Positions 2,317 to 43,201 of a stretch of DNA of 64,000 bases are shown piece after piece. Source of the stretch: Anadara kagoshimensis (taxonomy: Eukaryota; Mollusca; Bivalvia; Arcoida; Arcidae); NCBI GenBank assembly GCA_021292105.1, contig CM037870.1, positions 61,964,167 through 62,028,166 on the forward strand, in the 5' to 3' direction. The translations under genes were made by a program, and so were the position numbers. The notes under the pieces were generated by a model. It made no database searches, was not told the origin of the DNA, and saw nothing but the letters and a program-made list of their open reading frames with translations. Within the stretch, counting starts at the first letter, position 1. Every line of letters begins with the position of its first letter.

Positions 2317-3315
2317 AGCTCACCTGAGCACAAAGTGCTCAAGTGAGCTATTGTGATCAGTCTTTGTCCGTCGTGCGTCGTGCATCAACTTTTCATTGTT
2401 AACACTCTAGAGGCCACAGTTTTTGTTATATCTTCATCAAACTTGTCCAGAACAATGTTCAGGTCAAAAGCTAAGTCAAGTTCATATATGGAATGTGTTG
2501 GATCAATAAGTAGGTCACTAGGTCAAATCAAAGAAAAACCTTGTTAACACTCTAGAGTCCATAGTTTTTGTCCAAACTTCATATAATTTGTCCAGAACAA
2601 CGTTCATGACCAAAGCAAGGTCAAGTTCGTATATGGGTCATGTTGGATCAATAAGTAGGTCACTAGGCCAAATCATAGAAAAACCTTGTTAACACTCTAG
2701 AGTCCATATTTTTTGTCCAATCTTCATATAATTTGTCAAGAACGATGTTCATGACCAAAGCAAGGTCAAGTTTGTATATGGGTTGTGTTGGGTCAATAAG
2801 TAGGTCACTAGGTCAAATCATAGAAAAACCTTGTTAACACTTCAGAGTCCATATTTTTTGTCCAATCTTCATATAATTTGTCCAGAACGATGTTCATGAC
2901 CAAAGCAAAAGTTCATATATCGTTAGTGTTGGGTCAATAAGTAGGTCACTAGGTCATATCATATAAAAACCTTATTAACACTCTAGAGTCCATATTTTTT
3001 GTCCAATCTTCATATAATTTGCCCAGAACGATGTTCATGACAAAAGCTAAGTCAAGTTTGTATATGGGTCATGTTGGATCAATAAGTAGGTCACTAGGTC
3101 AAATCATAGAAAACCTTGCTAACACTTTAGAGTCCATGTTTTCTGTCCAATCTTCGTATAATTTGTCAAGAACAATGTTCAGGACAAAAGCTAGGTCAAG
3201 TTCATATTAACTTATAATGAATTCTGTTAATCCTCTATTCATGACATTATTGGAAATATGTGTAGAATTCAATTTATTCTCAGGTGAGCGCCAGGGCCTC
3301 ATGGCCCTCTTGTTT
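2317..3315. mobile_element. Interspersed element with six about 145-bp tandem core units
   Basis: Left end AGCTCACCTGAGCAC...GTGCTCAAGTGAGCT is palindromic and is followed by GTCCGTCGTGCGTCGT. Six core units start at AACACTCTAGAG near 2401, 2546, 2691, 2836, 2977 and 3121. The right end is CTCAGGTGAGCGCCAGGG plus a palindrome and CTCTTGTTT. No transposase is present. Layout resembles non-autonomous tandem-core elements of bivalves (pearl/Helentron-like); the class is inference. Confidence 0.8.
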
Positions 3316-14000: not shown

Positions 14001-16840
14001 GCACATTGGGGGCATTGGTGGCTGATTGGTCTATAGTGTACACTTACATATCATAGCCCCTCTCAATACCTAGGTTGAAATCCCACTTGGAGCAAATCCT
14101 AGTGTGAGAAAGCTACTTTTTTGTGGGCACTCTGGTTCCCTCCACTATTTCTGATCTGACTGGTTCAGTCTTGATTACAGTGCAAAATACCACTCCACTT
14201 CATTAAACAATTTTGTTGTCTACATCATGAGCACTTAAAATGTCATCAAAATGACAAATATCCATGTCTGATATCATATAAAGATGACAGGCAAAAGTAG
14301 TATTAGAAAAAATAAATACACCAGCTTGTACAGTAGATATATATTTGATATTAGGTAAATGTGTTACAAATGTTGCTTTATCTGTTGTTTTAATACTTCT
14401 TATCTGGGTTAGTTGGTCAATGGTCTAATTAAGGTATTTAAATTGTTTTTTTTTTTATTTTCCTGTAAAAAAGTCCTAAATATGTGTGGAATTCTTGAAA
14501 TCTTAATTAGTCCCTTAATCCCAAGGTAATTTTGAGAGTCCAATAGAATTATGGTAAGTTTGTTTTTAAATTTATAGAGGGAATGGTAGAATTCGGTCAA
14601 GTGACTGATGCTGTTAAAGATTACTCGAGTCTGTGTTGAGGCCCCAAGTCCCAGAAAGATAGAACTCAGTCAGTTGGTTCAAGCTGTTTACATAGACTTA
14701 CTACTCGAGTCTGTGTCTTAGAACAGGGTCCCAGAAAAAGCAGAAATCAGTCAGTTGGTTCAAGCTGTTTACATAGACTTATTACTCGAGTCTGTGTTTT
14801 GAGGTGGAGTCCCAGAAAAATCAGAAATCAGTCAGTTGGTTCAGAATGTTTACATAAATTATTATGTAAGGCTGGGTCGTTGGTTTGACTCTCAATAAGG
14901 TATAAAGGCACTTTAGACCACTCAATCAACCACCAAGTCCCCCTTTTCATATCACAGGGAAAATTGTAAATGCAGAATTGCATGGCTTGCAATGAATTTA
15001 AATGTAAACTTTAGTTGTAGCTATATGACTTAAAATGCAAGGCCATTCATTAAAACTGACTTAAGGTAATATACCTTTTTTAAAACGTCTAGTAGAAGCA
15101 ATGACAATACAAAGTATAAATATAGGAAATTTGTCATTGCTTCATGTCCATGACTCATAAAGATTTTTTTCTAAATTAAAATTTTTATCAACAAACTTAA
15201 AGTTCACTTCAGTTATTAAAATGATCAGCTGTCCTTATTCATTATTACCTGTAAATTACAGGTAAAACATTGCAAAAATTACAGATAAATCATTGCAAAA
15301 AATCTACCATATCGTTTATAAGTAATGTAATTTGGAGAGGGCCTTATAAAGCAACATCATAGTGTTTTTTGTCTAGCCTATCAAGCCTGTAGACTATATC
15401 CCAGTCATTGAGTCATTGTCAAAGGTGTCAGCATTGGTGTAAAACATTTTGGTTAAAGTTTTCTTTCATATCTATTTTCTCTTGAATTACAAGTGAAAGG
15501 TAAGACATATATAGATGTATGAATTTTTCACATGGACTCAAATATATACAGTACCCATACTTCAGATTTGCTACACATGACATTGACCTTGAATCAAGGT
15601 CATACAACCTTTTAAAAATGGTATTCTGATAAGAGTTGCACAATCTTTTGGCCTGCTGTTTATATATGTAAAAATGTGTTAGGTTTCTTTCATTAAGAGT
15701 AGAAATACATGTTTACATACACATGGGTGTTTCAAGTGTGTCAATGGTTAGAACTATTGCCTGTACCTGAGTTCCATTCCCAGTTTTGTTTGTGGTGTCT
15801 CAATGGCCAAGTGGTTTAAAGCAGACTCCTGGTACATCCATGAACTGACTGCCTCAATATAAATGAAAGAATCTGGACTGGGGATTAAAACTCCATTACT
15901 CCACTCCCCCACTCCATTCCACTCTTCTTCAACAAATGAACATTTTCGTAAATGTCCAGATGACTGCCCTATATACTTATCACATACTAGTGTCACTTGA
16001 TTCACTTGTCACAAGTCACATTTACCCGTTAGTCACCAAATTAACTTATAAACAAATTTAACAGAAATATTCATACAAGTTATATTATAAACTTGTTTAA
16101 AAAAGGCTTCATGTTCGATATTTATCAAAAGTATAGAAAAGTATTTATATGCTAATGGCATATCGAAGTACACCATACTTATTTTATTACCACAGGGTGA
16201 ACACAGCACATGTTGCCATATTGTAACTTGATACAGATATATATATGATATTGAATTTTTTTTTAAAACTTCCTTCATACACAAGGCCTGCCTACTAAGT
16301 TTCTAAATTCTCGTTTGACAAGACTCATTTCAGTTTATTGAAGGTGCACTATCTTATTTTATAAATTTAAAGTTAAATTTTAAATCGTGGGTGTTAAGAG
16401 GTTTGACAGGTACCGGCATGGGGTATAAAATTTAAGATAAGGGTTATATTTTCAAGTTGAAATTTCAGATATATATTTAAAATGTTAACTGGTTGTTGGT
16501 TTTTGTTTACAAACATTTGTGACCAATTTGTTACAGTTTATAGACAGATAACAGTTTTAAGTAAGTATTTTACGGTTGAGTGAATTTCAATATTATGACA
16601 TGAAGTTAAATTTTTTTGTTTTTTTATAAAGACGCAGCCTTGCGGACAAAGTCAAACTTTTCTCCACTTTGAAACAAGAGGAAGAAAAACCAGCTAAGAA
16701 GGATGCACCGCCGCCACCTGTGTTAAGACGGAGAAATCGTAAATTACAGTCCCGATTTAATACTCAGGTAAATATTATGACTATATTTATGAATTTGTTG
16801 ATTGCCATAACTGTGGTAATTCCAAAAATAGGAGGAAATG

Positions 16841-16891
<51 letters not shown>

Positions 16892-19800
16892 TTTAGGAAT
16901 TATGTAGTTTGTGTTGCAATTGTAACAAGAGTGTGATAATGTTCATTTATGAGATGGATTATGTAAAGTGTTAAAAATAAGTCCTTGCCTGATATAATTG
17001 TAATTTCAACTTTTTCTTTCATAGTATATAGGGGATTATTGAACAAGGAACTTCCTGGTTATTTCCATAAGTAACCAGTCTCAGACTGTCGGACTGGTCA
17101 TTATTTCCATCACTAATGTGTAAGGTATACTAGTACCTTGAAGGACTTCAGATAATGGTATTTGCGGTCTGTTTTCCAAAGGAGGAGGAAGAGGGATTGA
17201 GTTGTTAAACAGGGACATGTCTGTCTTATATGCTTAGTAGTTTGATCTCTTGATAATTGACCTACCACTCTATGCTTATGTTTTGGATCACCTTGCCTCA
17301 TTGTGTTTGAGGGAACATTTAAAGGGCTACATTCGTAGGAACTAAAAGGATCCCAAAGCATAAAAAAGACAGTTTCAAAAAGATATGGTTAATATGCAAG
17401 TTAATTAGAGGTCTTACTGCCACTTTGATTTTCTACTTTTTGGATAGCAGGTGATGTCTCGATACAAAGGAAATCCTACTGACATGATGTAAAACTTAAT
17501 CATTAAGCATGCATTTTTGTAAGATCAAGAGTGGAGTAATGATGTTTTACTTATATCCAGGCAGTCAATTCAGGGATAGTCGAGAAAACAGATGTACCGG
17601 GTAAAATACTCTGACTTTTGGCTAGCAAACTTTCAAACTTTCTCATACTAGGGTCTGCCAGACTTGGGATTCAAACCATAGGCAGTGAGTTGTGTTGTGT
17701 TCTGTAATTGCACACTTTAGACCACTCATCCACTGAGGCTCCCTACCGGAATAGGATTTGAACCTAGTTAGTGAGAGGCGCTGTGAACTGTAATTTCATG
17801 CTTCCGACCATTCTTGTAGTCAAGACCCATCATATCGCACTATACAATTTGTTTTCTATTTCAGCCTGTTACAATAGAAGAAGTAGAAAAAGCAGCAGCA
17901 TACAGAATCTCACCCTTGGCTATGAGCCTTGTGAAACCCCCAGATCCAGAGATTCTACAGGGTCTGTCTCTATCAGCACAAAGAGAACTCATGGCCCAGC
18001 ATGCTCAGGCTACACTATCACAGCCAAGTTCAAGGTCAAACTCTAGACATGGTTCCAGTGTAGATCTCTCGGACGACTCAAAGCAAGAGAACAGAGGTTT
18101 TTATTTATATAAAGTATACTGTAGATCGAAAAATTCCTCCAGAGTAACCAGGCCACTGTTTCACAATCATTTCACTAAGATTAAGATTTTCCTTAACTTA
18201 AATTTGGCAAATTTTCAAATCGTAATAATTTTGTAAATATTCTGAAATTTAATGTGTTATTTTGAAGACCACTTCTAACTTAGTCAAAAATATTTATTCA
18301 TAGTTCCAAGAAAAGATTGTCAAAATTTGCCAGATTTAAGTTAAGGAAAATCTTAAGGAATGATTGTGAAACTAGAAGCAGATATAAAAATAAAATGCAA
18401 GCTGTTTTATTTTGATATAATTCGTTAGCATTTGCAATGGCCACCATCCGACAACATAAAAACAAAAGTATATATAATATCTTGACATGATGATTGTCAT
18501 GAAAATTAAGTGACAAAAATGTCCAGGTTTACTGTATTTAGAAATAACTATTTGGCAAATCAATGATTTTGTTTGCCTAAAGTTACTACAGAATACAGGT
18601 AGTTTACCCTGAGGAAAAATGACTAAAATTATGTAACAATGCAATCAATATTTAAATTATATAAACCAAATTTCACATGATGATTACAATAGAAACCTAA
18701 TAACCTATGGAAAATATAAATCTATATATTCATGGATGACAGTGAATTAGGGTGTTGGTAACACTTTGCAAAACATGGCTTTAGTTTATCTTCTCATTTT
18801 GAGATTTAATATATTGTAGGTATTCTCAAATCTCCAGAGCCTTCCAAAGATTCACAGGAATTTAAAGGAATTCTCAAAAATGAACCAAGTTCACAGAGTC
18901 CAGAAAGAGAAATCCGAGGGATTTTGAAAGCAGACAGTGAGAAGCCGTCATCAGCTTCATCCGAGCCAGCCAGAGGAATCCTCAAACAACTTGGATCTGA
19001 TGATGAAAAACAAGAATCGGAGTCAAAAGGAATCTTGAAATCTCCTGACAAAGAACTTGTTAAACAATCATCATTGGAACAAAAAAGTATCCTGCGTCAT
19101 CGTGATGCAGATTCCGAAACAGTTGAAAATGAACAAGGTAAAGCAGATAAAGGAATTTTAAAACATTCTGATCCTCTTCTTGCTGAAATTAAAAGTGTTT
19201 TGAGAGAAAGTTCACCTGAGAAAACTACTTCGCAGAGGAGTATTCTAAAGAAGGAGAGTAGTTTTGAGACAAAACAAACAGAACCAGAAAAAAGTGTTCT
19301 TAAGAAAACTTTGTCTAGTGAATCTAGCACGGTTCTAACACAACAAACTGAGGAAAAATTAGATGTTGACATCAAACTTGATACTGAAATTGAGAAAGAG
19401 GAATCTAAAGATAGCACGGATGAAGTAGAAGAATCGAAAGTAGCGGGAGATGACACAGATAACACGTCGTCTAGTGATAAAGGAAAATCTAATGTCAGTT
19501 CAAGAAGACGATTTAGAGATCGCAAAGATCGTACAAATGAAAGGTAGGTAATACTGATTATATATATAATATGGTAGTGAAATATACAAATTTGCCTGAG
19601 CTGAAAAGCTCGATGTTGATCAATGTTTGTCACTGTTATTGACTTTTAGCAAAGCCATTATTTTCACTAATCTGGTTAATGACAATGTGTCACATAATAA
19701 ATTCTTTAGCTGGGAAAAACCAACTCTGCAATGTTTTGGGAAAGGGGGGGGGGGGTATTTGTCTCTCAAGAGACTAAATCACCTTTAGATTTAATTTATA

Positions 19801-30779: not shown

Positions 30780-33700
30780 GAAATTGGGTGAACAGAAAAT
30801 TGAATATTTTTGTCAGGTATTTTTGTTTTTCTATACTGTGACATCATTGTTGCTCAATAAAGTGTATATGAAAACAAGAAAAATCTTTAGTCCTGCATTT
30901 GATCTAGTTTTATGAATGATTTGAGGCAAAATTTGCCATTTTGATTTTGACCTTGCACAAAAAACTTATCGAGGCTTGTGAAAATTGGGAATCAGGCTAC
31001 TGAATCTGTTGTTAAAACTAACCGATAGATTAGCTAAACCACTTGTTCAAGCTTTTAAAAGATATTTAATCGCACAATATAATTTTATGGAAAAAGGTAC
31101 TCCCCATCTTCCATAAAAAAGAACAGAACAAAAAATCATTGTAATATTATAGTTTAAACACTTCAGTAACACCCAGTATATATTCCAGATCCTCAGATCA
31201 TGGCATCATGGGCATGTACAATAAAATTTTATGGGAAAAAATACTCCAGACCATGACTTCAAAAACAATCATTGTAATACTCTAGTTTCTAACACTTTAA
31301 TAATATACATGTACTGATATATTACAGGTCCACCCATTGTGCAACCAGAACCTAAAGTTGAAGTTGTACAAGAGGAGGAAGAAAAGAAAAGGCCTACGAA
31401 GGTGGAACTATTTGATATGAATGACGATCACCTACAGTCATTCTTCCAAGTCAGACAGTCCACAGAACTCACGGATAAAATAGATGTCACAGTGGATGAT
31501 ATGAACGACTTGTTTATTTCGGCCAATGACATGTATGTTTGTTTCATCTGTTTATTTTACTCAGCCTTTTTAAGTTTTTCATATAAATATGAAAGAAAAC
31601 AAATGAAAAATAAAAAGTTATCATATTTTCTCATTATGTCTTTATTTAATCTTTGAACTCAAGCTATGAGCTATCTTGACCTTCAATACTCAAATATTCT
31701 TTACTAGATAGTGCCACTTATACATGTTGCACAGGTGCTATCTCTTAAGCTTACACTGAAAAAATAAATCTGTTTCTTTGGAATCTCATCCAAAGACTAC
31801 TTTGAGAGGCCCCAATGACTAAGTGATTTAACATACTGCTTTATGTATCACATCACCTGTCATCACCATTTTTTGAATCCCATTTGGGCAACATCATAAT
31901 GTGAGACAGTTTGTGTCATTAGTTTACTTTTGGAATGTCATTAGTTTTCTTCAAGCACTCTGGTTACCTTCACCATCTCTGAACTGTCTGGTTCAATATA
32001 CCTTAAGTGATAGAAATTTGATTGGAAGGAAAGATATCTAAGAAAATTTGTTTCTAATTGTATTTAGTCTGACAACAACTAAGAAGATAAGACCAAAAAG
32101 AAGACATACAGCACGCAGTAAAAACCCACTCAAGACAATCTCACAGACTGTAGAGGTAAAAATGGAGTATGAAGAAGTCATTACTGGTGTAGCTGAGAAA
32201 GAAAGCCGAAGGATGAAAACAGCTGCAAGTAAGTTTAAATTTGAATATTAAGTTATTTCATGAGGTAAGCAGATTTGAAATGCTAATTAAGTATTTATAA
32301 CTGTACATTTGTTATTAAGATACTGTTCCTTAAATTGATATTTGTTGGTCAGGATGTCCAGTGAAAATGAGGACACCATGAAAACGATTGATCTCACAGT
32401 GGAAAGTTAGTTGTATATCTGTATTTAATATATGTGTATTTTTATTTTCATAGTTGCAAAAGATGCTGGATTTGCCCAGGCAGCATTAGCAGGACTTGCC
32501 AGCACAGAGAACTTCGCCAAGGTGTCATTAAGAAAGACAGATGAAAATAGTACCCAGCTTGGTACATCTAGACTGGAGCCCTATAAAGATTTAATGTTGC
32601 TTCATGTCAAAGGTAAACTATTTTATAAACTTCAAGACCAAGTTGTTCAAGCTGAATTAGTTCTCTATATACACAGACAGTACCACCTGTATTCTCAAAA
32701 ATAGACCTTTTTCTGGTGTTGCCAACACAACAGCATTCATATACATCTTGCATTAGAACATTAAACAAATGTTCAATTTCTTGGTTGGTTCAGGTTGTTT
32801 GGTGAACTAGATGTATAAAAGAAGGAGACTTGAAACTGAAAAATGTACTTGACGACAGACAATGTAACTGAAAACTTGTGCAACACAATACAAATTAGTG
32901 ATAAAACAGGCAAACTAGACAATACAAATTAGTGATAAAACAGGCAAACTAGACAATACAAATTAGTGATAAAACAGGCAAACTAGACAATACAAATTAG
33001 TGATAAAACAGGCAAACTAGACAATACAAATTAGTGATAAAACAGGCAAACTAGACAATACAAATTAGTGATAAAACAGGCAAACTAGACAATACAAATT
33101 AGTGATAAAACAGGCAAACTAGACAATACTGGTACAAAAATAGACCAAACATATATGGAGACCACTGATTATAAAATGTCCAGTGGTGTTGTTATAGCAA
33201 TTGGTCATATTTTCTTTTTTCACTACCCTTTTTATCATCTAATTTACCTGTGGTTAAGGTGTAGCTAGCTAGACAGGAGGTGCTTACTTTTCTGGAGTCC
33301 CTGTCCTCGCTTCCCTGGTTGAAGTTCACATGTTAAATTTAATTTGCCAGTTTATTATTGTTTGATATAGACTATTATGGTTTTTGTTTGATGATCACTA
33401 GTTTTTATGATTTTTGTATAATGTAGGTCGACGTAGAGTACAGGTGAGACTTGTGGAGCCGTGTGCTAAATCTGTAAATAGTGGAGATTGTTACATACTT
33501 GTGATGAAAGATAAAGTTATTAACTGGGTCGGAGAGTATTGTAATGTCATTGAAAAGGCTAAGGTTAGTATTTAAGTACTGGATATGGTCAGAAAATGGT
33601 TAATTAAAGCTACAGTGTTTGCTACTTCCATTCAAAATGAGATACCAAAATTTTGAAATGAAATTAATATTTTGGTCTTGTTAATTAATAGTGACACTGA

Positions 33701-36700
33701 AAGCATACAATGTCTATTTTTACACTGCAGAAAAATAGAATAAAATATTGATGAATTGTTTAGTACTATAAAATATAGAGAAAAACATAAAATACATGTG
33801 CATAGATTTATTGTTCCACAGTATGACAGGGTATTATTTAATGCCCATTATATACCTTATTATCTAGGCTGGCTATTTCTCTCCCATTAGATACCCTATT
33901 ATCTGGGTTGGCTATTTCTCTATATACTGTAAATATATTAATTTTAGGGGTTTCAGCCATGATACATAAATGCTAATTTAAATCCAATGCCAAATTAAAT
34001 ACACTATCATAGTGCATCAGGTGATGCATGAGAATTACACTAACTAAACATGTTCAGATATACATGAATTTAAATTTTATCCAAATTATAATTTATGCTG
34101 AAATTTGTACATGCTAAAATCCATACATTTACTGTTATTACAAATAAACATTTCAGTTATTGTTGTACGTGTACTGTTTTATAGGCTGCTGATGTTGCCA
34201 CCGTAATCTGGCAGAAGAAGGATCTTGGTTGTAAAATGGCCAGCAGTGTTGTGACGGTAGAGGAGAAACGTCAACACTTGGGTCCTGGAAAAGTCTTCTG
34301 GAAAGCACTAGGTGGAATGGAAAAGGTTGACCGTAAGTAAATGTATATTATAGAGTGGAGTAATAGGGTTTTATGCTCTGGTATAAAGTATTTCACATAA
34401 ACAGCAAAACTTTGTTCTGGTAGTGCAAGTGGAGTAATGGCATTTTGCACATCAATTATGACTTTTCACTTATTTGTCAATGGCTTTCTCTGGATACTCC
34501 AGTTTCCACTACCATTCCAATATACAGGTTTTACTGAATATATAATTTGTAATACTTACTCTACACTTTGTAATTGTGAAATATTACTTGTACATGCAAC
34601 CATAAAGGTCAAATAAAAGTCTCACAAAACTTGAGTCTGATAAGTAGTTGTACTGAATATATTATTTGTTTTTACAGCTGCGGGACCCACCGAGGAAGAT
34701 GAACTGTATGAGAACCACATAGTGGAGACAAACATGATTTATCATATGGTAGAGAACACACTGGTCCCTTACAAGGAACACTGGGGTTTACAACCCAAGG
34801 TCGACATGCTGAAGAAAGATGAGGTATCTAGTTTATTTAATACAATAAAAGCCACCTGATAACTTTGCCACCACACTTTTCTCTACATTCAGTAAAACTG
34901 TGTTATAATGCCACTCTATAATTTTGCCACTTAACTTTTGTTTTGAAGAAAGATGAGGTGTCAAGTTTTATAAAATAGAAATACAGTAAAATCTTGTTTT
35001 AATGCCAATCAATAATTTAAAACACTTATTTGTTGAAGATGCCACCTTGTGTATTGTGCTTAAGAAAAATGAGATATCATATACAGTAAACTTTTATTTC
35101 AATACCACTTGATAAAACTTTACCACCTTGCTTATCACCACAGTACAATAAAACCTCTTTTTAATGCCCTTTGATAACTTTTCTACCTTGCTTATCACCA
35201 AACTATTTTGAACATCCAATATCCATATCTTCTATGTTTCTTCCTCTACAAGTCTCGCTTCATTTATTGTCAAACCACCTACAAATACAAAACTTTGACA
35301 GACAAAGTGTGGCAATAACTTGAGGTTTTACTGTATAATTCATTATATGTCTTTTATACTTGATATGTAAAATTAAGTTTTTGTTAATCTTTGCATCATC
35401 TCAATCCATTTTAGGTGATCGTGTTTGACTTTGGCAGCGAATTGTATGTATGGCAGGGTAAAAGTGTAAAGCCAGAACAGAGGAAACTTGGTGTTAAACT
35501 AGCCAGGCAGTTGTGGGAGAGAGGTTATGACTATAGCAATAGTGATATAAATCCTCTATGTCCATTACTGAGTGAGTACATCATATGTACATATCACATT
35601 GACATATGTGCAATACACATAAACATAAATGCTTTCATGTCGGGACACCTATGTGGCAGCTGAGTTGGTAGAGTGCTCCCTTGGTATGTGGAAGGTTGTG
35701 GGTTTGAAACCCAGCCGGGTCTGGCCAAGACTTGAAAATAGGTTGTGACTGTTCTTTCCCCAAGCACTCAGCATTTAAAAATGAAAGTCACGGGTCCTTC
35801 AGAGACCTTAAACACTGATCCCTTGTGTCATGACATGTTAAAGAACCCTCTGCACATTGCCCTTAGCAGACTACAAATGTAAACAATTCTGCCACTTCAT
35901 CTATAGCTGGTGATGTCTCCATTTACTGGTAAGTGAAATATTCTTGATTTGGATTTTAAACTTGATGTTCATTCAAACAACCATTCAAATGAGTTCAAAG
36001 TTTATGCTTGCACACATACATGTCAGAGAAAGGCAAATAGATAAACAAATGCAGACATGCAAGCCCACACATAAAATTCATGTAGAATTATTTTCAACTA
36101 GATATTAAATAATGTAATCCCCTAAAACTCCAGATCTTTGCAAAATCTTGGGAGTTTTAAGAGAAATCTCGAAATTTAGTCATCGTACATCCAGCTCCGG
36201 AGCACCTTGCTTCACTTCCCTGGTAAAAATTGACATGTTTTACTTAATATTCCAGATTTTAACTTTGCTTTTTGGATTGTGATTTGACCAATATGTTTAT
36301 GTTTGACAATTTACACAAATGTTATGAAATTTTACATAGTGTTCCATTGAAACTGCTTTACTATCATAAAATTAAATTTATGTTTATCTTTTACAGCTGA
36401 AGAAATGGGAGGTTTGGAAATGAAGGGAGCAGCTCGACCATCTTGGGCCTTGTTTGGTAAAGTCAACCAAAATATGGAGACTGCCTTGTTTCGAGAAAAG
36501 TTTTCTGATTGGCCAGATCAGTCCCGTATCATCAAGGTTAAAGGTCCAGGTGACAATAACAATAAAGTAAATATCACATTAATCTCTTACATAGCCTGTT
36601 GATTATATACAAGTCAAGCTGTGTGCTTCTGAAAAAAAAAACAATTAAAATTTGTAGTAAATTTGTAAATGAAAAATCAGATATACAGTAAAACCTTGTT

Positions 36701-40369: not shown

Positions 40370-43201
40370 AGATGAAATCTTAAATCCATCACATACACCT
40401 GACCATGTCTCATCTTAACCTACATGTAGTTAGTGAAACACTGTGAGAGTGTGCTATAGATCACTTGGCCACCAAGGCCCTAAGAGAGAAACAGTTGTGT
40501 CTGTACTAGAAAATCACAAATAATTGTGGTGAAGTAATTTTCATTATTTCCATGGGTAAGTTACTAATGTCATTGTTTAATGTCAATGAAATATTTTACT
40601 TAAAAACAAGGCCCGGAATGGCATTTATTTTCACAAAACAATTTGAAAACAGAAAATGTTAAATCCATGGTTATTAAAGATGCCACAGTATGTATTGTAT
40701 ATATATTATTTATTTTTGTAGGATTATTCCTGGTAGATAATGGTAGTGTTGTGTATTTGTGGCATGGTTGGTGGCCAGAAGGGGACGCTGATATAGAAAA
40801 TGTCCAGACAGGGTCAGCCATGTCTAGATTCAACATAGACAGACGGTGTGCCATGGATACAGTTGTGCAATATTGTAAAGGTCAGTACTAAATAATTTGA
40901 AATAAAGACATTAAAGTTGATGATTCAAAAAAAGATTGATAGAAATTCTGCAACACTAGCTTCTTGATTCCTTTTTCTATGCCAGTTTCTCGAAACAGCT
41001 AGACCTTTTATGGTAAGGCTGTTCAATGTGCCACGCCTGTCCGGGCATGTGGCATTGGTTTTTTAAGGTCTCTTCTGAAAGACCCTGTGACCTATTTTTA
41101 AATGCAGAGTGTTTGGCAAAAAGAACAGTCACTAACTTTTTAAGTCATACAAGAGGTACTTGAAAGAAATACACATAGGTTCATGGTATTAATGTTTTCG
41201 ATTTAAATTCTGTGATAGACTAGATGTTCAGATTATCTATACTGCTTTGAAAGCTCTTTTTTATGTAACGTCATGATGAAAATAAAGGGAAATGTTTATT
41301 TATGTGTGGATGTGTTTTATTTTTTGCAGAAAAAAATCCAGACAATCCGCCCAAAGCCTATACAGTGTACGCTGGTGTAGAACCACATCAGTTTACAAAT
41401 CTATTTCCTTATTGGGATGTAGATGAAACAGCAAGAATGTTAAATCTCAGGGTAGGTATGAACTAGAATTGTCAGTAAAGGTGATTTATACTTGTGTATA
41501 GGTTTACCATTGGGACATGACCCTGTGTTACTTAAATTTGGTATGTGACACATTGTCTCATGTTGGTTTACATATTTTGTCCAGAGCATAAAACCAAAGC
41601 TGTAAGAGGTATCAACATGACACTTCATGGTTAGATAGATCTTGGTGAGGGGAATTGCAGTGTACAAGAATCATTAACTTGTTTTCACATAATTAAGAAG
41701 TTATTGCCCTTTGTTATTTTTGCACTTAAATTTTTGTTAAAATGCGTTCTTGCTGTCCTTTGTCATATATACATTTTCTCAGTAATACAGTATTTCAATT
41801 TTTATTTAAACAGACATTTTAAAAAAAGAACATAAAAATAACCCTTTTGGAACTAGCATTTATTCAGGTAGCATCCTTGGTTCTATCAAGTTTCTTGTTA
41901 CATGAATACATATGATATCCATTCATACAACTTCTTTCATATTGTGTTTTTAAAAAATTTTATTTTTTAATTTTAGGATGGTAAAGTTGATTGTGAGTTG
42001 GCTTTACTAGAAGAGGTGCTAGAGCGTGTTACACTTGCGAAGTATTCGTTTGATGAGTTAATGGAACGACCGTTACCAGAGGGTGTTGATCCATTACGTT
42101 TAGAATCTTACCTTGAGGATGAGGAGTTTGAGGTTTGTTTCTAAAATTATTAGTAGCCAAATTTTTTAATATATAGTCAATTTTAAAGAGTTTTAACCAC
42201 AAATTTGTTAAAATAGATACTTTCTCAGTATTTACGCTTTGCGTCGGGCAATAGTCAGGACCTCGGGTGCCAACAAAATTGCTATTGTCCGCACCACCAG
42301 TCAATAATTGTTTTATTATATGAAAACAATTTAAATATACACAATGTACCAAGAAATTTCAACAAAAGTTTAATTTGAAAATGTATTCAGTTCATCATCC
42401 GACATTTCGATCAACTTTTCTAAAGTCAAATTGTGATTTACATGATCCGCGTACTCTTGTAATATTTTTGTAGCCACACCGATCACATTGGTCGTGTTTT
42501 TACTGTCCCTGTCGTTCAGTATGTTAATTAATTCCTCATCGTCGTAGGACACAAATCTGCTGATGGCCGACATTGTTTACAGTTGACAGGAAGCAGACGT
42601 TAAGGGGTCAAGGTGAAGGTTAATGCGAATAGAACAACAGCATGTTACGTCACGGTCGTCAACCAATCAAATCGCCGATGACATCGACATTGCAGGAAAA
42701 TTCAAAACGTTGTTTTGACAATCACGCGCAGTCCAACAGCAAAAACTATTTGACCGGTCCGAAAAGACTATTTTCCTGGCTTATTAAGGTCGAATAGTAA
42801 TTTTGATGAGGTTTTTTTCTTTTTAATTTATGTATAAGAAATTTTATATGAATATAAAGTTAATATTGCCATTGGTGTTTTTGACTTCTTGGATAGAAAC
42901 AGATTATATATAATGTTCTTTTAATCTAATGTCAAACTTTAATTAATTATTTTACAATTTTTTGTATAAAATGTCTTCAATAATAAAACGTAAGTAGATG
43001 CTGATTATTTCTGAAATGTATAAAATTATAAGTTTCAATTAGTGTTTGTTTTCATCGTCCAGATGTGCAATCATTGGAGCTATTATTTATTTATTTATTT
43101 ATTTATTTATCTAGGAGGTCTTGGAAATGACAAAAGAAGAGTTTTACGCTATGCCATCTTGGAAACAGTCCAAATTAAAGAAAGAGGTCAATCTATTCTA
43201 A
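4865..43201 (+). CDS. SVIL: Supervillin-like actin/membrane-associated protein, 3' 28 exons (partial, N-terminus missing)
   Basis: Twenty-eight GT-AG exons with matching phases join into about 1,861 residues ending at TAA 43199-43201. Residues 1 to about 1030 are charged and low in complexity, with TQPVT-type motifs and ten SILK-like motifs. Residues about 1080-1780 form gelsolin-like repeats ([38 protein letters not shown]). The last about 65 residues are a villin headpiece ending KKEVNLF. Supervillins are cortical F-actin and myosin II binding proteins of the villin/gelsolin superfamily. From memory the human protein is about 2,200 residues, so a few hundred N-terminal residues lie upstream of this window or in exons I could not find in 1-4864. 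The KNPLK, LAGLAS and DELYE stretches match the family as I remember it. One apparent frameshift lies in exon 3. Identity is very sure; the exact exon 3 end is not. Confidence 0.95.
5117..5302. mobile_element. Copy of the TACAGTAAAAC / GTTTTACTGTA family
   Basis: Begins ATACAGTAAAATTTCATTATAATGCCC and ends GGCGGTTTTACTGTATA. The ends are inverted repeats of each other and the body has no gene. It is MITE-like. Confidence 0.6.
5776..5998. repeat. Tandem repeat, TCTCTATCTGTATATGCCGG units
   Basis: Five copies of a 42-57-bp unit containing TGCCGGTACATTTGATGATT. Some units carry an extra TTATGTAATGTA block, so two unit lengths are mixed. Confidence 0.95.
5999..8182. other. Intron 1, remainder
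   Basis: No exon seen. Holds a pyrimidine- and CCCACCCA-rich tandem region (about 7310-7490) and a diverged repeat near 7905-8060 with TAAACTTGGTAAACATG, typical of the interspersed elements here. Confidence 0.5.
7310..7490. repeat. Diverged tandem repeat with GACCCACCCACCCA
   Basis: Three to four units of about 60 bp, each with GACCCACCCACC then ATCTCTGGT and CTTTTTT. Confidence 0.8.
8183..8398 (+). CDS. SVIL: Supervillin exon 2 (TQPVT motif)
   Basis: Acceptor TTGGCAG and donor GG|GTAAAT. 216 nt, phase 2-2. Encodes [10 protein letters not shown], an amphipathic [14 protein letters not shown] segment and a basic run ending [17 protein letters not shown]. The R-x-TQPVT-x-E-E motif recurs in exons 3, 4/5 and 7 and is a supervillin hallmark. 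Confidence 0.9.
8894..9566 (+). CDS. SVIL: Supervillin exon 3, two TQPVT-type motifs, apparent +1 frameshift, alternative ends 9611 and 9656
   Basis: Acceptor TTTTTAG before 8894. The entry frame ([16 protein letters not shown]) runs to a TAA at 9053-9055. The +1 frame then carries [14 protein letters not shown] through to the donor. The length to 9566 is 673 nt; phase needs a multiple of three, so exactly one base is in excess, most likely in the A7 tract 8990-8996. Further on are [20 protein letters not shown] and [18 protein letters not shown], both similar to remembered vertebrate supervillin. The exon ends in a 45-bp repeat that holds the donor, so 9566, 9611 and 9656 are equivalent ends differing by 15 residues each. 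Confidence 0.85.
9552..9688 (+). repeat. 45-bp tandem triplication spanning the exon 3 splice donor
   Basis: Three near-identical 45-bp units, each with the donor TCAAG|GTATGT (after 9566, 9611 and 9656). In the exon frame the unit encodes [15 protein letters not shown]. Because 45 is a multiple of three and the downstream phase is the same, use of any donor keeps the frame. Confidence 0.95.
10078..10218. repeat. About 74-bp direct duplication
   Basis: AAAAGTCCCATGATATTGT...GAATCAATTAGCCAT occurs twice in direct tandem with few differences. Confidence 0.9.
10671..12513. mobile_element. Second element with tandem core, right end shared with 2317-3315
   Basis: Left end AGATGAGCTATTG followed by a GTCCGTCGTGCG run. 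A unique part (CTCCTCCAAAACCACTGGGC, GGAGTTATGTCCCCTTGGGG) is then followed by nine units of about 145 bp with TTTTTGTATAGGCATGTATA and AAGGTCAAGGTCA. The right end TTCAGGTGAGCGTTAAGGCC and palindrome AGGCCCATGGGCCT then CTTGTT match the first element. No open reading frame. Confidence 0.85.
13258..13510. repeat. About 85-bp diverged tandem repeat (TATAAAGACCA...TTAAGGTCC)
   Basis: Three units with AAGACCA-CTGT-CATTAGGA and TTTAAGGTCCCT-TGCTT. The same sequence family recurs at 25870-26350 and 63866-64000. Confidence 0.75.
14000..14200 (+). mobile_element. tRNA-like SINE copy, family 2
   Basis: Starts GGTGGCTGATTGGTCTATAG (box A-like) with GGTTGAAATCCC (box B-like) about 75 bp later, then the shared body TCTGGTTCCCTCCACTATTT. 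It is old and diverged. Confidence 0.55.
14615..14860. repeat. About 85-bp tandem triplication
   Basis: Three units with TACTCGAGTCTGTGT, GTCCCAGAAA and GTCAGTTGGTTCAAGCTGTT. Confidence 0.92.
16632..16767 (+). CDS. SVIL: Supervillin exon 4
   Basis: Acceptor TTATAAAG and donor CTCAG|GTAAAT. 136 nt, phase 2 to 0. Encodes [19 protein letters not shown], a PPPP run and a basic stretch [14 protein letters not shown]. The TQPVT motif is cut by the intron after TQ. Confidence 0.9.
16842..16892. repeat. (TA)n microsatellite in intron 4
   Basis: TATATA run of about 50 bp with one G interruption, 75 bp after exon 4. Confidence 0.98.
17530..17815 (-). mobile_element. Reverse-oriented SINE family 2 copies
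   Basis: Contains GAGTGGAGTAATG, GGGATTCAAACC and CACTTTAGACCACTC, then GGATTTGAACCTAG and TTCCGACCATTC: two reverse-oriented tRNA-like heads in tandem. It lies just before exon 5. Confidence 0.55.
17865..18096 (+). CDS. SVIL: Supervillin exon 5
   Basis: Acceptor CTATTTCAG; weak donor AGAG|GTTTTT. 232 nt, phase 0 to 1. Starts with [14 protein letters not shown], completing the split TQ|PVT motif, then a Ser-rich tail ([20 protein letters not shown]). The donor is chosen because the G it leaves joins GT of exon 6 to make the Gly of the first GILK motif. The foldback element at 18158 lies 61 bp downstream. Confidence 0.88.
18158..18372. mobile_element. Foldback (palindromic MITE-like) element, copy A
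   Basis: GTTTCACAATCATTTC...TTTTCCTTAACTTAAATTTG at the left is the inverse of CAGATTTAAGTTAAGGAAAA...AATGATTGTGAAAC at the right. About 215 bp, in intron 5. Related copies at 23586, 62421 and 62686. Confidence 0.9.
18820..19543 (+). CDS. SVIL: Supervillin exon 6, array of ten SILK-type (PP1-docking-like) motifs
   Basis: Acceptor TTGTAG and donor AAAG|GTAGGT. 724 nt, phase 1 to 2, about 241 residues. Ten copies of [KR]-[GS]-[IV]-L-[KR] occur in the first 162 residues, 14-22 residues apart: GILK six times, SILR, SVLR, SILK and SVLK. The linkers are Ser-, Glu- and Lys-rich with several SPE/SPD sites. [GS]IL[RK] is the SILK motif known from PP1 regulators such as inhibitor-2. After the array come an acidic segment and a basic end [16 protein letters not shown]. 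No hydrophobic core is visible; probably disordered. Confidence 0.93.
20420..21080. repeat. About 120-bp diverged tandem repeat
   Basis: Five to six units with AATCAGTATACCAC, CAACAGCCC, AAGGT-GTTTTACAGC-AGCC and CACTCATTTAA in the same order. Confidence 0.85.
21665..21770. repeat. About 50-bp direct duplication
   Basis: GAGTTTGAAAAGAACATGTA...TTTGGTG-AGA-TTTTT occurs twice. Confidence 0.85.
21938..22190 (+). mobile_element. Two tandem tRNA-like SINE heads
   Basis: GGATAGCTCAGTTGGTAAAG and AACAGCTCAGTTGATAGTG both look like box A of a tRNA. Each is followed about 40 bp later by a degenerate box B (AGGTCTGATCCCTGG; GAGTTCTATCCC). They are not intact tRNA genes. Confidence 0.6.
22845..23145 (+). 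mobile_element. SINE family 1 copy (5' truncated)
   Basis: From GGGTTTGAAACCAGGTCGGG (box B) through GACTTGAAAATAGGTAGTGA and CCAAGCACTCGGCATA to GTGAAATATTCTTGACTTGA and an (AATC)n tail. The same body occurs at 35650-35955. Confidence 0.8.
23586..23832. mobile_element. Foldback element, copy B
   Basis: GGTCCCGGTTTCACAAT...ATTCCTTAGCTAAGATTTTC mirrored by GAAAATCTTAGCTAAGGAAT...GAAACCGGGACC. Long, good arms, so probably younger than copy A. Intron 6, 167 bp before exon 7. Confidence 0.93.
23999..24175 (+). CDS. SVIL: Supervillin exon 7 (TQPVT motif)
   Basis: Acceptor ATTTTCAG and donor ACAG|GTAACC. 177 nt, phase 2-2. Encodes [16 protein letters not shown] and then [20 protein letters not shown], one degenerate and one good TQPVT motif, followed by [12 protein letters not shown]. 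It is a symmetric exon, so it can be skipped without a frameshift. Confidence 0.9.
24821..25059 (+). CDS. SVIL: Supervillin exon 8
   Basis: Acceptor TTGAACAG and donor GGAG|GTAATT. 239 nt, phase 2 to 1. Encodes [16 protein letters not shown] and [20 protein letters not shown], a pair of similar units (L-x-x-L-x-x-S-x-x-x-W-K). They match the tandem 'QSGEEDWRNR'-type units of vertebrate supervillin as remembered. It ends near [10 protein letters not shown]. Confidence 0.92.
25190..25450 (+). mobile_element. SINE family 1-like copy, diverged
   Basis: ACATGGCCAAGTTGTACGCA (box A-like) and GTGGGTTTGAACCTC (box B-like), then TTTCAGAAGAGACTCAAAAC similar to the family 1 body. Confidence 0.5.
25582..25638 (+). 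CDS. SVIL: Supervillin exon 9 (57-nt microexon)
   Basis: Acceptor TTTTTTAAG and donor AAAG|GTATAA. 57 nt, phase 1-1, encoding [18 protein letters not shown]. Too short for ORF-length filters; supported by phase on both sides and good sites. Symmetric, so a possible cassette. Confidence 0.75.
25870..26355. mobile_element. TACAGTAAA-bounded element with GACCACC...AAGGTCC units
   Basis: Starts ATTACAGTAAAGCCTGCTATGATGACC and ends ACAGGCTTTACTGTATAG, an inverted terminal pair. Inside are about five diverged 80-bp units with TTAAGACCAGT and TTAAGGTCCCTTTGCTT. Confidence 0.75.
26570..26910. repeat. About 120-bp diverged tandem repeat
   Basis: Three units with AGTTATTTA/TGTTATTTACCC, ACAAATATTTAT-TGGAAA-CAGCAAA and TTTTGAA-TT. 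AT-rich. Confidence 0.75.
27320..27625 (+). mobile_element. Repeat fragment ending in poly(A)
   Basis: Carries TTGTCCGCTGCCTTTCGAAG, TCCTCCTTGGAGTTATGGCC and CTTTGAAC, then a 36-base A run (about 27580-27615). Similar phrases occur in the tandem-core elements. The A run suggests retroposition or simple expansion. Confidence 0.5.
28061..28153 (+). CDS. SVIL: Supervillin exon 10 (93 nt)
   Basis: Acceptor ACATTTCAG and donor GCAG|GTAAGA. 93 nt, phase 1-1, encoding [20 protein letters not shown] and then [11 protein letters not shown]. Acidic-serine linker. Phase fits both neighbours; symmetric. Confidence 0.8.
28485..29185. repeat. About 83-bp intronic minisatellite, eight to nine units
   Basis: Units contain GGCATGCTTAGAG-ACCATG, TCAAATGACATCCCTAAAC and GATGAAACTAACAACC. 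Two unit types are interleaved (one with AATCACTTTAAAGGACAAAT). The last three to four copies are almost identical, so recent expansion. Confidence 0.95.
29790..30085. mobile_element. TACAGTAAAACC-family element
   Basis: Left TTTACAGTTAAACCTCTTTA and right TCAAGGTTTTACTGTATATA are inverted ends. An inner boundary pair near 29905-29925 (TTTACTGTAAAAACCTC) suggests two copies joined. Confidence 0.7.
30325..30605. repeat. About 108-bp tandem triplication
   Basis: Three units starting GTGTTTAGTCATATAATATT with GGCCAAGCAAATATAATCAT; first two nearly identical, third 3'-truncated. Confidence 0.95.
30747..30777. repeat. (GA)n microsatellite
   Basis: GAGAGA run of about 30 bp in intron 10. Confidence 0.95.
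31328..31532 (+). CDS. SVIL: Supervillin exon 11
   Basis: Acceptor ATTACAG and donor GACAT|GTATGT. 205 nt, phase 1 to 2. Encodes an acidic linker ([20 protein letters not shown]) and [16 protein letters not shown]. It corresponds in place to the segment before RPKRR-KNPLK in supervillin. Confidence 0.88.
31805..31990 (+). mobile_element. SINE family 2 copy
   Basis: AATGACTAAGTGATTTAACA (box A-like), TTGAATCCCATTTGGG (box B-like) and TCTGGTTACCTTCACCATCT (shared body). Intron 11. Confidence 0.55.
32068..32228 (+). CDS. SVIL: Supervillin exon 12 (KNPLK region)
   Basis: Acceptor TATTTAG and donor GCAA|GTAAGT. 161 nt, phase 2 to 1. Encodes [20 protein letters not shown] and [10 protein letters not shown], a basic, strongly conserved supervillin stretch just ahead of the gelsolin-like half. 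Confidence 0.92.
32454..32612 (+). CDS. SVIL: Supervillin exon 13
   Basis: Acceptor TTTCATAG and donor AAAG|GTAAAC. 159 nt, phase 1-1. Encodes [18 protein letters not shown] and [11 protein letters not shown], the highly conserved entry into the first gelsolin-like repeat. Confidence 0.95.
32887..33128. repeat. 34-bp minisatellite, about seven perfect units
   Basis: Unit CAATACAAATTAGTGATAAA then ACAGGCAAACTAGA, essentially identical in all copies. In intron 13. Likely variable in copy number. Confidence 0.97.
33427..33563 (+). CDS. SVIL: Supervillin exon 14 (gelsolin-like repeat 1)
   Basis: Acceptor ATGTAG and donor TAAG|GTTAGT. 137 nt, phase 1 to 0. Encodes [20 protein letters not shown] and then [24 protein letters not shown]: the gelsolin-type beta strands with the SGDC-Y turn. 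Confidence 0.95.
34185..34332 (+). CDS. SVIL: Supervillin exon 15
   Basis: Acceptor TTTATAG and donor GACC|GTAAGT. 148 nt, phase 0 to 1. Encodes [17 protein letters not shown] and [15 protein letters not shown], the helix and end of repeat 1. Confidence 0.95.
34678..34823 (+). CDS. SVIL: Supervillin exon 16
   Basis: Acceptor TTTTACAG and donor TGAG|GTATCT. 146 nt, phase 1 to 0. Encodes [20 protein letters not shown] and [20 protein letters not shown] and the ETN-IY stretch are supervillin-specific. Confidence 0.95.
34888..35340. mobile_element. TACAGTAAAACC-family cluster, intron 16
   Basis: Repeated CAGTAAAA-CT-TTTTAATGCCA with TTTGCCACC-TGCTTATCACC. The right end GAGGTTTTACTGTATAATTC inverts the left. 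Confidence 0.75.
35415..35571 (+). CDS. SVIL: Supervillin exon 17 (gelsolin-like repeat 2)
   Basis: Acceptor TTTTAG and donor CTGA|GTGAGT. 157 nt, phase 0 to 1. Encodes [35 protein letters not shown], a canonical gelsolin strand-helix signature. Confidence 0.95.
35645..35955 (+). mobile_element. SINE family 1, nearly full length
   Basis: tRNA-like head TGGCAGCTGAGTTGGTAGAG (box A) and GTGGGTTTGAAACCC (box B), body GACTTGAAAATAGGTTGTGA, tail GTGAAATATTCTTGATTTGG. Intron 17. The body matches 22845-23145 closely. Confidence 0.85.
36397..36566 (+). CDS. SVIL: Supervillin exon 18
   Basis: Acceptor TTTTACAG and donor TAAA|GTAAAT. 170 nt, phase 1 to 0. Encodes [19 protein letters not shown] and REKFSDWPD, the conserved linker after repeat 2. 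Confidence 0.93.
36685..36850. mobile_element. TACAGTAAAACC-family element, intron 18
   Basis: ATACAGTAAAACCTTGTTTA...AAATCAAGGCTCTTTTGTAT; about 165 bp, the right end mutated. Confidence 0.7.
37018..37127 (+). CDS. SVIL: Supervillin exon 19
   Basis: Acceptor AATTTCAG and donor AATG|GTATGT. 110 nt, phase 0 to 2. Encodes [22 protein letters not shown] and SHVGRGKEW. Matches the DVKAYD...LDGVNVGRG stretch of supervillin as remembered. Confidence 0.92.
37319..37488 (+). CDS. SVIL: Supervillin exon 20 (gelsolin-like repeat 3)
   Basis: Acceptor TATTTTAG and donor AAAG|GTACAG. 170 nt, phase 2 to 1. Encodes [12 protein letters not shown] and [19 protein letters not shown]. The donor flows directly into the TACAGTAAAACC repeat at 37490. 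Confidence 0.95.
37490..37880. repeat. About 60-bp tandem array of the TACAGTAAAACC unit, intron 20
   Basis: Six to seven units of TACAGTAAAACCTCA-TATA then TGCCCC-AA-AACTTTGCCA and CTTGCTTATCACC. The array starts two bases after the exon 20 donor. Confidence 0.9.
38083..38237 (+). CDS. SVIL: Supervillin exon 21
   Basis: Acceptor TTTCAACAG and donor TCAG|GTAAGG. 155 nt, phase 1 to 0. Encodes [20 protein letters not shown] and [13 protein letters not shown], nearly identical to the remembered vertebrate sequence. Confidence 0.96.
38537..38850 (+). CDS. SVIL: Supervillin exon 22 (gelsolin-like repeat 4)
   Basis: Acceptor TTTTTTAG and donor AGAA|GTAAGT. 314 nt, phase 0 to 2. Encodes [50 protein letters not shown] and SAAERLKQK. 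Longest exon of the gelsolin-like half. Confidence 0.96.
39290..39500. mobile_element. Interspersed repeat fragment, intron 22
   Basis: ATATAAGAATTGGCTGTCCA...CTTCCATGTCTATGGATTGA with TTTGATCAAACTTGGTTCAA, a layout like the left parts of the tandem-core elements. No coding content. Confidence 0.45.
39583..39722 (+). CDS. SVIL: Supervillin exon 23
   Basis: Acceptor TTTATAG and donor ACAG|GTAATT. 140 nt, phase 2 to 1. Encodes [20 protein letters not shown] and [17 protein letters not shown]. The CPLE-GL and FW stretches are conserved. Confidence 0.93.
40164..40319 (+). CDS. SVIL: Supervillin exon 24
   Basis: Acceptor TTTTTCAG and donor CCAG|GTAAGT. 156 nt, phase 1-1. Encodes [19 protein letters not shown] and [14 protein letters not shown], the start of repeat 5. 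Confidence 0.92.
40335..40373. repeat. (GA)n microsatellite in intron 24
   Basis: GAGAGA run of about 37 bp starting 15 bp after the exon 24 donor, followed by an echo of exon 24 sequence (AAATCCATCACATACACCTG). Confidence 0.95.
40376..40412 (+). repeat. Duplicated piece of exon 24 in intron 24
   Basis: TTAAATCCATCACATACACC then TGACCATGTCTCATCTTA repeats 40238-40276 of exon 24 with a C/A change. It has no splice sites and is not a coding exon. Confidence 0.9.
40722..40880 (+). CDS. SVIL: Supervillin exon 25 (gelsolin-like repeat 5)
   Basis: Acceptor TTTTGTAG and donor AAAG|GTCAGT. 159 nt, phase 1-1. Encodes [20 protein letters not shown] and [17 protein letters not shown]. Confidence 0.95.
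41010..41150 (-). mobile_element. SINE family 1 fragment, reverse orientation
   Basis: AAGGTCTCTTCTGAAAGACC...CAGAGTGTTTGGCAAAAAGA and ACAGTCACTAACTTTTTAAG mirror the family 1 body (GTGACTGTTCTTTCCCCAAG). Confidence 0.7.
41330..41451 (+). CDS. SVIL: Supervillin exon 26
   Basis: Acceptor TTTTGCAG and donor TCAGG|GTAGGT. 122 nt, phase 1 to 0. Encodes [20 protein letters not shown], the end of the gelsolin-like region. Confidence 0.94.
41977..42132 (+). CDS. SVIL: Supervillin exon 27 (headpiece N-terminal part)
   Basis: Acceptor AATTTTAG and donor TGAG|GTTTGT. 156 nt, phase 0-0. Encodes [19 protein letters not shown] and SYLEDEEFE. This is the N-terminal subdomain of the villin headpiece, with the [15 protein letters not shown] signature. 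Confidence 0.96.
42225..42800 (-). mobile_element. Mobile-element fragment with N-terminal piece of a recombinase-like gene
   Basis: Lies in intron 27, antisense to supervillin. From 42573 down to 42370 an open frame of 67 residues starts [20 protein letters not shown], contains [19 protein letters not shown] and ends at a stop after LNTFSN. The layout (acidic start, 'KDSKNT', then a helical stretch) resembles the N-terminus of tyrosine-recombinase-like genes common in molluscs (Crypton/DUF3504 type), from memory. No catalytic domain follows, so it is truncated. The 150 bp upstream of the ATG is richer in CG than the flanks, as a former promoter might be. Confidence 0.5.
43081..43110. repeat. 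(TTTA)n microsatellite at the last supervillin acceptor
   Basis: Seven TTTA units end four bases before exon 28 and form its polypyrimidine-like tract. Confidence 0.97.
43115..43201 (+). CDS. SVIL: Supervillin exon 28, villin headpiece C-terminal subdomain and stop
   Basis: Acceptor TTATCTAG follows directly on a TTTA microsatellite. 87 nt, encoding 28 residues ([18 protein letters not shown], then [10 protein letters not shown]) and TAA. The P-x-W turn, the KK pair and terminal LF are typical of headpiece domains. Confidence 0.97.
   Translation, partial: EVLEMTKEEFYAMPSWKQSKLKKEVNLF

Follow-up and report, generated by a model that had tools for sequence, protein, structure and literature searches.

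What might ten copies of a short motif that fits a known phosphatase-docking site be doing in a single exon of a supervillin gene? The window (the whole stretch of DNA that was analysed, 64,000 nucleotides from the bivalve Anadara kagoshimensis) holds such an exon. An earlier note, made from the sequence alone, took its motifs for SILK motifs, through which regulators dock on protein phosphatase 1 (PP1), and proposed that they could gather PP1 at the actomyosin cortex.

The supervillin gene and its array exon

The gene on the + strand is a supervillin, as the earlier note had it: gelsolin repeats are followed by a supervillin-type villin headpiece. The Pfam Gelsolin profile scores above its cut-off in two of the five window pieces scanned, in the C-terminal part of the gene, and the piece at 38537-38851 matches villin and gelsolin chains. 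The start of the headpiece is encoded at 41983..42132 (+ strand), where the best match is the solved supervillin headpiece 2K6M (E 4.4e-8) and villin comes next (E 0.0066); the last headpiece piece lies near 43160. The order of the exons on the + strand, between 8989 and about 43160, would agree with the layout of supervillin, in which the gelsolin part is preceded by a long, disordered N-terminal half (the structure model described below covers the array exon only).

Several exons of the N-terminal half can be placed. The one at 8989-9516 shares 96% identity with the Tegillarca granosa protein P0043 ("hypothetical protein KUTeg_001955, partial"). The same protein matches the exon at 16632..16767 (+ strand) in a tblastn search, with 77% identity over 52 columns; the acceptor AAAG/A and the donor CAG/GTAAAT of this exon were read from the sequence, and a phase-0 splice joins it to PVTIEEV. 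These residues start the joined translation of the exon at 17865..18096 (+ strand), which lies 5' of the array exon, has an AG acceptor and a GT donor read from the sequence, and ends in AACAGA/G, so that motif 1 receives its Arg and the opening base of its Gly codon from there.

The array exon itself (18820..19543, + strand) is entered in phase 1 and left in phase 2 through the donor AAAG/GTAGGT, and its ten SILK-type motifs are followed by an acidic and serine-rich tail. All ten motifs were located where the earlier note had placed them, in one frame that is open from 18810 to 19547; from motif to motif they are spaced by 16, 17, 19, 18, 19, 22, 14, 15 and 18 residues, within the range of 14-22 that it had given. 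In the relatives P0002 and P0003 the corresponding stretch starts with VGILK after an intron-like leader and ends with NER.

Motif 1 (RGILK, 18820..18830, this and all following motifs on the + strand) reads R/GILK across the intron when the exons are joined, and is followed by motif 2 (KGILK, 18864..18878). Motifs 3 (RGILK, 18915..18929), 5 (KGILK, 19026..19040), 6 (KSILR, 19083..19097), 7 (KGILK, 19149..19163) and 8 (KSVLR, 19191..19205) are identical in Tegillarca. Motif 4 (RGILK, 18972..18986) is KGILK there, motif 9 (RSILK, 19236..19250) is KSILK, and motif 10 (KSVLK, 19290..19304) is KGVLK both there and in P0001. The eight motifs of the overlapping part are kept in Tegillarca with R/K and G/S changes only; the annotated Tegillarca model omits the exon before the array plus the first two motifs.

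At position 0 of the motif six copies have Gly (G-type) and four have Ser (S-type). Eight copies fit the strict pattern [GS]IL[RK] and the other two have Val, as had been noted, and the five-residue form [KR][GS][IV]L[KR] occurs nine times wholly inside the exon, the tenth (18820, motif 1) being completed by the upstream exon. These counts exceed those in shuffled sequence. In 20,000 shuffles of the amino acids of the exon the strict motif occurred 0.036 times on average and at most twice (8 observed), the five-residue motif 0.012 times and at most twice (9 observed), and the loose motif [GS][IVA]L[KR] 0.088 times and at most three times (10 observed). The five-residue pattern was found nowhere outside the array in the six-frame translation of the whole window, where the strict four-residue pattern has 14 further, scattered occurrences.

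The array is not a recent DNA repeat, since Tandem Repeats Finder (minimum score 40) called nothing over it, the ten motif leucines use all six Leu codons, and the ten motifs contain nine different ILK codon triples. Agreement between copies is 40% at third codon positions and only 12% over the nine residues that follow the motif. The product of the exon is predicted to be disordered, as the earlier note had supposed: the mean pLDDT is 45.3, with 205 of 241 residues below 50 and none of the 241 at 70 or above. A profile of the array alignment A1 found no match among solved structures at E values up to 10.

Other repeats occur in and around the gene. One supervillin coding exon has at its 3' end a 45-bp tandem repeat with 98% matches (9548-9689), in which donor-like AAG/GTATGT sites recur in register at 9564, 9609 and 9654, so that each step would add 15 in-frame residues. 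A second short protein motif of the gene, R-x-[RKN]-T-[QL]-P-V-T-x-x-E, has five copies across the N-terminal half (8358, 9058, 9406, the 16767/17865 junction and 24087), which Pfam DUF4695 overlaps below its cut-off only. An intron between supervillin exons contains about seven perfect 34-bp tandem copies (32885-33129), and two tandem arrays of 145-bp period each, with different consensus starts, lie at 2396-3207 and 11064-12110.

Relatives of the array and constraint on its motifs

Three protein searches gave 52 related open reading frames (ORFs), which together with the window form 25 clusters (single linkage at 60% identity across 70 residues). The candidates scored numbered 1,260 in the first search and, in the two profile searches, were the 7,995 and 7,991 that shared most words. 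Relatives lacking an array would be missed because the searches start from exact words shared by array sequences, and the 52 ORFs tell where arrays are rather than how universal they are. At least three strict motifs are present in 51 of the 52, at least four loose ones in 51, and the number of loose motifs ranges from 3 to 11. The array is therefore no quirk of one species but old and broad; one of the 52 ORFs is that of the blood clam Tegillarca granosa. The motifs are kept in relatives, and the suggestion of the earlier note that this lineage had expanded one site finds no support. Human supervillin has a single RSILK at the corresponding place, after the TQPVT segment.

The closest relative is P0001, with 94% identity over 70% of the array exon, closer than Tegillarca. 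Many of the related ORFs resemble single exons with intron-like leaders. In P0039 and P0048 the PVTIEEV segment, which corresponds to the exon at 17865-18096, and the array stand in one ORF, which suggests that the array belongs to the mature message (the two ORFs may be from lineages without that intron).

Some of the relatives have peculiarities of their own. P0026 and P0030 each have five units with PILK rather than [GS]ILK, some of them apparently recent tandem copies (KPILKHEEEKS). P0052, a metagenome ORF of doubtful homology (E 3e-5), has several [PGS]ILK units, some of them followed by a basic residue and x-S-[LF]-E; its C-terminal KINF is a canonical RVxF after the array, which would fit PP1 if P0052 is a relative. 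P0044 and P0046 look like C-to-T converted forms of the P0022/P0032 type, with many changes of P to L or F, T to I and H to Y, and come perhaps from bisulfite-treated DNA libraries. For P0019 the database holds a precomputed Pfam domain, PF26091.1, which the Pfam scan of 29 members made here did not list.

Ten groups of close relatives, chosen by eye and containing 37 of the 53 sequences, were aligned; the remainder consists of P0013, whose end departs from its relatives, the converted-looking P0044 and P0046, and 13 ORFs without a close relative. In these groups the I position varies at 6 of 80 sites, the L position at 6 of 80 and the K position at 8 of 81, against 725 of 2125 sites elsewhere, a class that comprises all non-motif columns, including intron-like leaders and tails. 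Variation is thus about four times rarer at these three positions than at other sites. The weighted pairwise difference is 3 to 4% at positions 1-3 and 28% away from the motifs, the pairs within a group not being independent. The anchor for the pairwise differences, and for the comparison of the window with Tegillarca below, additionally accepted P at position 0 and M at position 1, two residues that the anchor for the count of variable sites did not accept.

Position 0 changes in a particular way. It varies at 20 of 80 sites, and 17 of these 20 are exactly G/S, in eight of the ten groups, against a background in which G/S makes up 22% (weighted) of the non-motif changes that involve Gly. At position -1 there is variation in 25 of 79 sites, and for 14 of these it is K/R. 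The core is not immune to change: the variable sites at the L position are three L/M and one each of L/T, L/P and L/S, and single motifs have been lost here and there among relatives. When the window is compared with Tegillarca alone, 1 of 32 core residues and 14 of 104 other array residues differ, a trend only (Fisher P 0.19).

The residues were counted over 181 motif instances, taken from one representative per cluster (25), the sequence with the most loose motifs or, for its own cluster, the window. They are G in 115 and S in 66, I in 149, V in 24 and A in 8, and K in 163 and R in 18, the pattern admitting only these residues. With a looser anchor (any residue, then [IVLMATF]-L-[KR]; 266 instances in 31 sequences) 88% still have G or S and 97% have I, V or A. 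Around the core there are wider preferences for K, R or H at -1, E or P at -3, an acidic residue at +5 and S or T at +6/+7. These comparisons argue with high confidence that the motifs are real, conserved and under selection. The low variability of I, L and K and the prevalence of swaps between G and S at position 0 thus mean that the protein mostly tolerates what the SILK pocket of PP1 is known to tolerate.

PP1 docking and other readings of the array

In PP1-SILK structures the consensus is (G/S)IL(K/R), the lysine is the main determinant and lies against Glu54, Glu56, Asp166 and Glu167, and the SALK of PTG occupies the same pocket (PMC9582199). Ala stands at the I position in 8 of the 181 array instances, as in that SALK. 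Selection on the motif, together with allowed residues that match those structures, therefore makes docking of PP1 through the array motifs the best explanation, and on balance a probable one. A SILK leaves unexplained the repeated KESSFE and EPEKS extensions, and the PILK units of P0026, P0030 and P0052 fall outside its consensus. The KESSFE after motif 9, which also follows some motifs in relatives, leads into EPEKSVLKK, and the whole element recurs in relatives; its possible roles are those of a kinase site, of a second, degenerate contact with PP1 or of a contact with actin. To read KESSFE as an RVxF with Ser in place of Val, comparable to the SQKW of inhibitor-2, would be a guess.

A canonical RVxF was found in the array of none of the 53 sequences; the matches in P0003 and P0020 precede the array, in an apparently translated intron, and that in P0052 follows it. 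The earlier note had seen no RVxF partner in the disordered part of the protein, and the motif scan of 12 window pieces bears this out: it shows no RVxF in the array and none in nine further pieces from outside the gelsolin part (scan within 8190-34337; small exons may be missed). The sole matches, KVINW and the KVFW that had been pointed out before, belong to two exons of the gelsolin part (33411..34337, + strand; Pfam Gelsolin repeat at 33420-33572). About 70% of PP1 regulators have an RVxF (PMC4999541). Since the array and the nine non-gelsolin pieces have none, the array may serve as a second, weak surface for docking.

The literature links supervillin and PP1 indirectly at two points. A predicted interaction network centred on PPP1CB counts SVIL among its 39 node genes (PMC8806868), and in Drosophila two proximity datasets have only two proteins in common, Supervillin and Bifocal, a PP1 interactor (PMC11827603). 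In a co-precipitation experiment that targeted LSP1 and myosin IIA rather than supervillin, no PP1 came down (PMC5802837). No report of direct binding between supervillin and PP1, or of a SILK array, was found in the literature searched, a weak negative, as few subscription papers were covered.

The known SILK systems resemble the array in part. Inhibitor-2 (PPP1R2) is, like the array, a disordered PP1 binder with a SILK, which superposes with those of KNL1 and PTG; unlike the array, it has a weak RVxF (SQKW), an inhibitory helix and no motif array. The letters of its SILK, of which it has one only, are KGILK. The kinetochore scaffold KNL1 has a SILK (SSILK) whose serine is a kinase switch, turned off by Aurora B, but this SILK is paired with an RVSF. 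KNL1 does have an array of its own, made of MELT motifs, which recruit other proteins. The PP1 docking region of Rif1 is disordered too, and changing its SILK to SAAA lowers the affinity about 20-fold, but in the region studied there is one SILK with an RVSF. In inhibitor-3 removal of the SILK leaves the affinity unchanged when the other contacts are present, and NMR shows its contribution once the RVxF has been deleted. LAP1B and Scribble contain single SILK matches that were judged not to be responsible for binding. PTG (PPP1R3C), which shows that the pocket accepts Ala at the I position, differs from the array in having one SALK, downstream of a strong RVxF; this SILK-type site about halves the KD, and its place runs against an older rule that such sites are always N-terminal (PMC9582199, PMC3792071).

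Other partners of the array have to be weighed against PP1. In its N-terminal region supervillin has three sequences that bind F-actin and a further one that binds myosin II (PMC4944918), and the array might extend this F-actin-binding half, with one motif per actin subunit and the spacing of 14-22 residues close to the single-strand repeat when extended, an argument built on an estimate of our own. Human SVIL is among the candidates carrying SFM, a short motif for actin filaments of the form VxxLxxxFE (PMC13364712), and a 10-residue stretch of the window shares P1, P8 and P9 with it. The P4 of this stretch is K, however, and not L, a relaxed SFM pattern has no matches in the 12 window pieces, including the array, and the same paper reports no motif-positive Mollusca orthologues for the proteins it analysed. 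An [ST][FL][ED] follows soon after the core in only one of the ten window motifs and 36 of the 181 instances, no Pfam WH2 or thymosin match was found at E up to 1 among 29 members of the 53 sequences, and the variation between G and S alone would be left unexplained. Binding of F-actin is considered unlikely. A partner of another kind, whose reading of [KR][GS][IV]LK, perhaps together with the KESSFE/EPEKS extension, resembles that of PP1 by convergence, is rather unlikely as well. It would account for the preferences at -1, -3, +5 and +6/+7, outside the four SILK residues, and would suit the missing RVxF near the array and the precedent of LAP1B and Scribble, where single matches were false; but the tolerated core set equals that of known PP1 SILK sites, and a different pocket would need the same preferences.

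The remaining readings do without a docking pocket. The sequence L-K-x-[DE] corresponds to the psi-K-x-E consensus of SUMO acceptor sites, and with D or E at +2 of the lysine in 86 of 181 instances, including window motifs 2, 3 and 9, the array might be a row of such sites. The remaining 95 depart from this consensus, 18 of the 181 have R in place of the lysine, as do 5 of the 11 motifs of P0019, and SUMO sites need neither G/S nor I ahead of the Leu, which makes this reading extremely improbable. A neutral, fast-turning low-complexity repeat without a specific partner would agree with the identity to Tegillarca, which is 80% over the array against 96% in the exon at 8989-9516, and with the changing number of loose motifs; the low variability of the I, L and K sites and the scrambling of synonymous codons with the amino acids unchanged speak against it, and it is very unlikely. 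MAPK D-site, cyclin RxL and NLS readings of the array were dismissed by inspection only.

A proposed strip of SILK sites at the actomyosin cortex

If docking of PP1 is the right reading, the process might be pictured as follows. Each motif could fit the SILK pocket of one PP1 molecule, with I and L in a small hydrophobic groove and K or R against the acidic patch. Because there is one SILK pocket per PP1 molecule, ten sites would raise the local concentration of PP1 and its rebinding, rather than hold one molecule with a tenfold grip. As SILK is weak in most of the published cases considered here and no RVxF was found near, the strip would most likely act on PP1 molecules whose RVxF pocket is engaged as well, either by a different region of supervillin or by a separate regulator. 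The phosphatase would thereby collect at the membrane-actomyosin cortex, where supervillin is located.

The two types of motif may differ in how they are controlled. In the six G-type motifs the residue at position 0 is not phosphorylatable, and basophilic kinases could inactivate the four S-type motifs, on the model of Aurora B acting on the SSILK of KNL1. The earlier note had proposed SP sites in the linkers as the switch. The window array does contain four SP sites, but among the 181 instances an SP or TP within six residues after the motif is found in only 23; a serine inside the motif (66 of 181) and S or T at +6/+7 are commoner.

In its fullest form the proposal is tentative, and possible rather than probable: a strip of up to eleven SILK sites, free of RVxF, may collect PP1 holoenzymes whose RVxF pocket is occupied, such as myosin phosphatase, at the actomyosin cortex, as a long-standing scaffold in which fixed G-type and kinase-switchable S-type sites set a graded density of phosphatase. 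Docking of PP1 that is engaged elsewhere has a precedent, as inhibitor-2 can stay on PP1 through its SILK and helix while spinophilin owns the RVxF pocket (PMC10066265).

In the cases covered by the literature, SILK has so far been treated as a helper beside an RVxF, one per protein. A conserved array of three to eleven SILK motifs would, to our knowledge, be the first, and would offer a natural experiment on SILK acting alone, in which the split between G and S would be a built-in difference between fixed and switchable sites.
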